A DNA stretch of 45,717 bases from Bacillota bacterium (GTDB lineage: Bacteria; Sysuimicrobiota; Sysuimicrobiia; Sysuimicrobiales; Segetimicrobiaceae), in contig JAJPJJ010000008.1 of NCBI GenBank assembly GCA_021324295.1, forward strand, positions 1-45,717, written 5' to 3'. The translations under genes and the position numbers were made by a program. Of this stretch, positions 38,462 to 45,717 are shown in pieces. Each line of letters starts with the position of its first letter. The first letter of the stretch is position 1. Below the pieces are notes generated by a model. It was not told the DNA's origin, did no database searches, and worked only from the letters and a program-made list of their open reading frames with translations.

Positions 38462-38830
38462 GAGCTGATGATAGCAAGCGTGCGCCCGGTCGAGGAAGAA
38501 CGCGCGGCTACCTGGCGCGCCTCGTGTCAGCTCCGGCCCGCCGGTCGGACCCGCCAGCCAAACGCGGGCGAAGGACAGGCCCCACGCCCTTCCGTATCCC
38601 GCACAGAACGTCCGGCATGCTCCGCGCGTGGATCCCCGCGCGGGTCCGGCGCATGCTCTCCGAAGCCCGAGGGGGCGCAGCGAGACCGATCGGGCGCGGG
38701 GCCCCCCGCGCCTCCGGCCGAGGCACGGCGTCCCACCCCGACGCATCGCCGTACTCACGCGATGCGTTGGCGGCCCCGGGAGGGCCCGGGGCGGGCCCGC
38801 GTCCCCGCGCCGGCGGTGCGCGATGCCGCA
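38462..38830. other. Intergenic region with two strong hairpins
   Basis: These 369 nt lie between the export operon start and the end of the HIT gene. Short open frames occur on both strands, but none has a Shine-Dalgarno or recognisable sequence. A stem CCGCGCG/CGCGCGG with an 8-nt loop spans 38622-38643. A perfect 9-bp stem ACGCATCGC/GCGATGCGT with a 9-nt loop spans 38741-38767. Neither is followed by a T-run. The second may mark the 3' end of the long leftward fab-rnc-HIT transcript. Confidence 0.5.
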
Positions 38831-44961: not shown

Positions 44962-45501
44962 TCACCGCGCGCGCTCCGATTCCCCCGATGCCCACCGCTC
45001 GAGCGGAGCCAGCCGCGGGTCGACGTCCCGTTCCTCGCAGCCGCAGGCCACGCGGTTGCGATCGGCCCCGCAGCGGGGGCACAGGCCGCGGCAGTGTGGA
45101 GAGCAGCGTGGCGCGATCGGCAGCGCCAGCATCACGTTCTGGCGAACGACCTCGGTGACGTCCAGCACGTCGCCTGGCTCCAGCGGCACGAGGAAGTCAT
45201 CGGGATCGATCGCCTCGCGACCCGGCTCGGCCGCCTGGGGTCGCGGGGGACAGAACTCTTCCGCCACGGGGACCTCGAGCGGCAGCTCGTACGGCGCAAG
45301 ACACGTCCCGCAGACGAGGCCCACGACCGCGCGGACCTGCCCGGTCAGCACGACGGACTGCCCCGTGCCATGTACCGTGAGGAGCCCTTCAACGGGCGCC
45401 GCGAGCGTGACCTCCTCGGCGGGCAGCTCCAGGCGCTCGTGGTACGCCAGCACGCGGACCGCGTGCCGGTCGGCCAGCAGCTCACCGACGTTCACGCGCA
45501 T
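44962..45501 (-). CDS. yceD: YceD family (DUF177) protein
   Basis: This 179-residue protein of the YceD/DUF177 family is conserved upstream of rpmF and linked to 23S rRNA/ribosome metabolism. It has CGTCLAPYELPLEV in the middle and the C-terminal cysteine cluster LCPRCGADRNRVACGCEE followed by DPRLAPLERW. I chose ATG at 45501: GAGGTG lies 7 nt upstream and MRVNVGELL is the family N-terminus. An upstream ATG at 45546 would add 15 residues. It is the first gene of the long leftward operon behind the promoter at 45579-45608. Confidence 0.93.
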   Translation of the reverse strand: MRVNVGELLADRHAVRVLAYHERLELPAEEVTLAAPVEGLLTVHGTGQSVVLTGQVRAVVGLVCGTCLAPYELPLEVPVAEEFCPPRPQAAEPGREAIDPDDFLVPLEPGDVLDVTEVVRQNVMLALPIAPRCSPHCRGLCPRCGADRNRVACGCEERDVDPRLAPLERWASGESERAR

Positions 45502-45564
45502 GCCGCCCACCTCGCCATCCACGACACGCACGAATACATAACACATGCCCGGGCACGCGGCGCC

Positions 45565-45610: not shown

Positions 45611-45639
45611 TCTAACGGCCCGGGCCCCCATCGGCCGGA
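45611..45639. repeat. 29-nt direct repeat, copy 1
   Basis: This unit starts TCTAACGGCCCGGGCCCC and ends CATCGGCCGGA. It is identical to 45689-45717. It lies two bases upstream of the -35 box of the yceD promoter. The unit has an internal CGGCC/GGCCG dyad. Confidence 0.9.
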
Positions 45640-45688
45640 GCACGCTACTTCGCGTCCCCTGCCGTTTGCCCACGTGCGGTGCCCGTGG

Positions 45689-45717
45689 TCTAACGGCCCG
45701 GGCCCCCATCGGCCGGA
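45689..45717. repeat. 29-nt direct repeat, copy 2 (at window end)
   Basis: This is an exact copy of 45611-45639, 78 bp further on, separated by 49 nt without similarity. The window ends at the last shared base, so the true repeat may be longer and more copies may follow. Confidence 0.9.

Follow-up and report, generated by a model that had tools for sequence, protein, structure and literature searches.

The exact direct repeat at the end of the window (the 45,717-nt stretch analysed here, which is the whole of contig C80 in a 129-contig, 4.02-Mb assembly) probably marks the place where the contig breaks within a tandem array that contains four or more units, each of about 78 bp. The array belongs to a non-coding, lineage-specific interspersed family, whose members would have spread into the gaps between genes and then expanded locally.

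The truncated array and its continuation on a second contig

Two identical 29-nt copies, the second of them cut by the end of the window as the earlier note had described, are found at 45611-45639 and 45689-45717 with a start-to-start spacing of 78 bp; in 100 dinucleotide-preserving shuffles no chance match with three or fewer mismatches to the 29-nt copy was expected. The second copy stops at 45717 because the contig stops there, and its 29 nt are the only portion of a second unit remaining before that end. The 49 intervening bases, previously taken to be unrelated sequence, are part of the repeat, since the whole 78 bp (29 + 49 nt) recurs in tandem elsewhere in the genome. The features of this region are as follows:

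45611..45688, plus strand: first, gene-proximal complete 78-bp unit, of type P (match to the unit model R1 at 45612-45686, 66.4 bits, E = 1.1e-17; identical unit at C122:23048-23125)
45617-45630: near-invariant core GGCCCGGGCCCCCA of the first unit
45689..45717, plus strand: initial 29 nt of the second unit, truncated where the contig ends (exact copy of 45611-45639; R1 match at 45690-45716)
45608 to 45579, minus strand: sigma-70-type promoter of the YceD-rpmF-plsX-fab operon, TTGACA-18-TATAAT (12 of 12 consensus bases)
44962..45546, minus strand: YceD (DUF177) gene, the first downstream of the array (Pfam PF02620, E = 3e-27; orthologues in 10 same-family genomes)

The array stops 2 bp upstream of the -35 box, with the core side abutting that box. 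The strong promoter reported at this place was confirmed: a TTGACA-TATAAT promoter is present at the corresponding position, with small changes, in nine genomes of the same family that are without the array.

The last 38 bases of the window (45680-45717) are repeated at the beginning of contig C122 when that contig is read in the reverse direction. From this overlap C122 continues with the tail of a unit, an identical 78-bp unit, two diverged units, a gene of unknown function, and then coaD, rsmD and recG (the last two named by eye from the sequence). As the C122 copy follows a unit tail and the C80 copy follows the promoter, a minimum of two identical units must follow one another, and the array must comprise four units or more. 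The join between the two contigs is supported not only by the overlap but also by synteny, because coaD, the unknown gene and YceD are adjacent, without an array, in seven relatives. Hence, of the interpretations offered earlier, the start of a tandem array is borne out, and extension past 45717 through the C122 overlap does recover further copies.

The coincidence of the end of the second copy with the contig end could also suggest a false duplication introduced by the assembler. This is highly unlikely, given that C122 independently carries an identical unit behind the tail of another, and that many complete arrays, whose units differ in sequence, were assembled in the interior of contigs. 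The suspicion of an assembly artefact was nevertheless right in one respect: the repeated copy itself is genuine, but tandem units of identical sequence seem to have interrupted the assembly at this point, and apparently also at a second one. There, the end of C102 and the start of C71 (loci L032 and L029) share 28 bases of one unit, and these ends probably adjoin, which would place a second break inside an array. We infer that contig breaks at array ends reflect the failure of a short-read assembler on identical units, and the family would thereby explain several of the contig breaks in this Bacillota bacterium genome.

A dispersed family of non-coding units

A genome search with the 178-bp end of the window recovered 85 matches, mostly tandem copies of the ~78-bp unit. 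The unit model R1, a sequence-only model built from 34 aligned units, matched 145 places in the 4.0-Mb genome at E-values up to 0.01, amounting to about 140 units. In the 660 kb of the genome that were read, 135 units fall into 66 arrays of 1-5 units each. Unit length is modally 78 bp and mostly 75-80 bp. The core GGCCCGGGCCCCCA is almost invariant and the remainder of the unit drifts, with about 61% identity between arrays; this conservation suggests that the core may serve in binding or recombination. Another array (L144, C56:6447-6764), made of four diverged units that repeat every 82 bp or so, possibly represents an older subfamily.

A coding repeat is ruled out, as the unit length is not tied to multiples of three and substitutions are distributed without bias over the codon positions (29/29/27). 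An identity of the repeat as a tRNA was tried and rejected. We also considered that the units might be structured RNA leaders, either riboswitch-like or attenuators, in 5' UTRs. Their location between an upstream gene and a Shine-Dalgarno sequence would suit such a role, and the minus strand of the unit in the window folds slightly better than shuffled sequences (z = -1.9). However, no consensus structure emerged over sets of 58 and 43 units, the window had no Rfam match, and the genes downstream are unrelated to each other, which together make RNA leaders very unlikely.

The alternation of an invariant segment with a more variable one, in polar arrays with a differing far end, is reminiscent of CRISPR loci, and the earlier note had raised a CRISPR-like array as one possibility. 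The short direct repeat with its intervening segment and the presence of a cas1 gene on contig C91 are in line with this. In contrast to CRISPR loci, however, the intervening segments are homologous in all arrays, and the arrays are dispersed across dozens of contigs. The only cas1 gene of the genome is on C91, a contig without any unit, and the conserved intervening segments refute a CRISPR array.

Placement and polarity of the arrays

With genes called by a simple codon-usage script, 65 of the 66 arrays overlap a predicted gene by no more than 47 nt, and nearly all lie outside genes or overlap gene ends only; at a few of these loci the upstream gene now terminates within the distal unit. Of the 39 arrays in gaps between co-directional genes, 30 point their core towards the downstream start (p=0.001, with arrays treated as independent here and in the p-values below), and the 9 whose core faces the upstream stop count against a preferred orientation. 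Of the 42 start-facing arrays, 20 have their proximal edge at 10-28 nt from the start codon, where uniform placement would predict 10.4 (p=5e-5); the distance is often 15-28 nt, and in most arrays it is at least 15 nt. With the edge at such a distance before the start, these arrays are situated just upstream of the Shine-Dalgarno sequence, which is left intact.

The genes behind the arrays are functionally unrelated and include those for SDR, cupin, SufBD, ArgJ, HisI/E, phosphoglycerate mutase and DinB proteins, among others, which rules out a regulon of related genes. An earlier proposal of a duplicated regulator site before the fab operon is accordingly correct as to place, but not as to a fab-specific regulator, since the unit precedes dozens of unrelated genes. 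A more general version would be that the arrays are dedicated cis-regulatory modules, in which the palindromic core GGCCCGGGCC would be recognised by a protein that controls transcription or translation of the gene behind it, with the copy number tuning the strength. The near-invariance of the core amid drift in the rest of the unit, and the fixed orientation and position before start codons, are compatible with such modules. On the other hand, no function is shared by the genes concerned, the orthologues in relatives manage without arrays, and the operon in the window has its own conserved promoter; we therefore regard dedicated cis-regulation as unlikely.

The arrays are also polar. Neighbouring units are on average 0.88 identical, a value that falls to 0.67 if the pair includes the unit farthest from the gene (p=6e-8), and the distal (D) units resemble one another across arrays, with 21 D-D nearest neighbours against 10.9 expected (0 of 500 permutations). 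From these neighbour identities and the resemblance of the distal units it follows that an array reads P...P-D from the gene outward. This polarity would be accounted for most simply if P units duplicated locally while D stayed fixed. A bolder variant, in which a core-recognising factor adds or duplicates units gene-proximally against the fixed D, making array length a heritable expression dial for many genes of the lineage, is to our minds unlikely.

We favor the spread of an interspersed family followed by local expansion. In this scenario a unit, or a short P...D block, would have been inserted repeatedly, with a preference for one orientation, just 5' of a Shine-Dalgarno sequence or promoter; many of the sites are tight operon junctions, at which insertion would do little harm. 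The gene-proximal P units would subsequently multiply via tandem duplication, with the single distal D unit staying as it was, and the contig end would mark the point at which the assembler could not resolve identical units. We infer the mobility of the units rather than observe it, because neither a target-site duplication nor a transposase nor a pair of empty and filled sites in the same species came to light.

Phyletic restriction and comparison with known repeat families

The empty sites, like all the relatives searched, are of other genera than the window. At nine orthologous gene pairs in one such relative, G004, arrays are absent, and several of these pairs are about 20 bp apart or overlapping (gaps being approximate, as measured from alignment ends); no tandem repeat with a period of 70-89 was detected in 1.16 Mb of this genome. 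Eleven other genomes of the same family gave one marginal model match in each of two (E about 1e-3 to 6e-3), and four relatives one marginal unit-model match each (E 9e-4 to 8e-3). A 23-base core pattern found no match among the 42 other genomes of the phylum, which is represented by one order and 43 genomes. This shape of the taxonomy hints, as no more than a guess, at CSP1-3/Sysuimicrobiota, which has a single class with a single order (PMC11604079). Searches for the exact tandem pattern in the species genomes of the GTDB genome_contigs collection retrieved no real array and no mycobacterial genome, and its two lone hits, one from Curvibacter and one from a bin of Oscillospiraceae, were rejected as they do not fit the unit profile. 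The exact tandem array was likewise absent from IMG/VR, and a viral origin was rejected on that ground, although both collections may omit the genome to which the window belongs. On these comparisons the family appears specific to the genus or species; loss of the arrays in the relatives is possible in principle, these being of other genera.

In architecture the family most resembles the mycobacterial MIRU elements, whose 40-100-bp units form short tandem arrays at tens of scattered intergenic sites (PMC2734929) and are limited to few lineages (PMC4213456). MIRUs insert between tightly packed operon genes, as in the case of rnc-fpg1, where the gap is 358 bp in M. tuberculosis versus 1-54 bp outside the M. 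tuberculosis complex (PMC2734929). Comparably, the 78-bp units occupy 66 dispersed intergenic arrays, favor co-directional tight junctions in one orientation (30 versus 9) and are restricted to one lineage. Nevertheless, according to the published description MIRUs insert at start codons and carry an internal ORF whose coupling is at -4 nt (PMC12548453), whereas the 78-bp unit has no ORF coupled to the downstream start, its array edge lies upstream of the Shine-Dalgarno sequence or promoter and not at the start codon, and its arrays possess a distinct distal unit. As the coupled ORF is lacking and the likeness was drawn from architecture, we do not file the family as MIRU, and its best reading is as a MIRU-like element. 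The polar build and the Shine-Dalgarno-sparing position would be its distinctive traits. Its occurrence in a phylum that is small and has been little sampled suggests an origin of MIRU-like minisatellites at operon junctions independent of that in the mycobacteria.

Repeat length alters the transcript level of Mtb-fpg1 (PMC2734929), and promoter activity resides in the MIRU region between senX3 and regX3 (PMC4213456). By analogy, some effect of the 78-bp arrays on downstream expression is plausible, and it may be a mild one exerted by spacing out co-transcribed genes. If array length varies between strains, this would offer a natural test of how operon-internal spacing affects expression.

REP sequences and REPINs are also short, extragenic, multi-copy and lineage-specific, and can form tandem arrays (PMC3116915), all of which applies to the 78-bp units. 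A REPIN consists of two REP sequences in inverted orientation and folds into a hairpin, whereas the 78-bp units repeat directly and share no conserved fold. No unit was found in the 3.3-kb locus of the single Y1_Tnp gene (C8:9891), and the absence of any unit beside this gene rules out mobilisation by a RAYT. That gene (L126, C8:9891-10241) is the only Y1_Tnp match, of the IS200/RAYT type, in the genome; a TnpB-like ORF in the same locus suggests an IS605-type element.

Another interspersed repeat, about 85 bp long and with a strong hairpin (CCAACGCATCGC...GCGATGCGTCGG, z = -2.7), occurs in the window at 38710-38788 on the minus strand, just downstream of a HIT-family gene. It has 51 matches in the genome, with only short, weak matches in relatives of the same family, and looks REP/MITE- or terminator-like. 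Some of the 78-bp arrays have a copy of this hairpin repeat close to their distal end, at a distance of about 25-95 bp, namely at L148 (C122:16153-16242), L054, L143 and L046.
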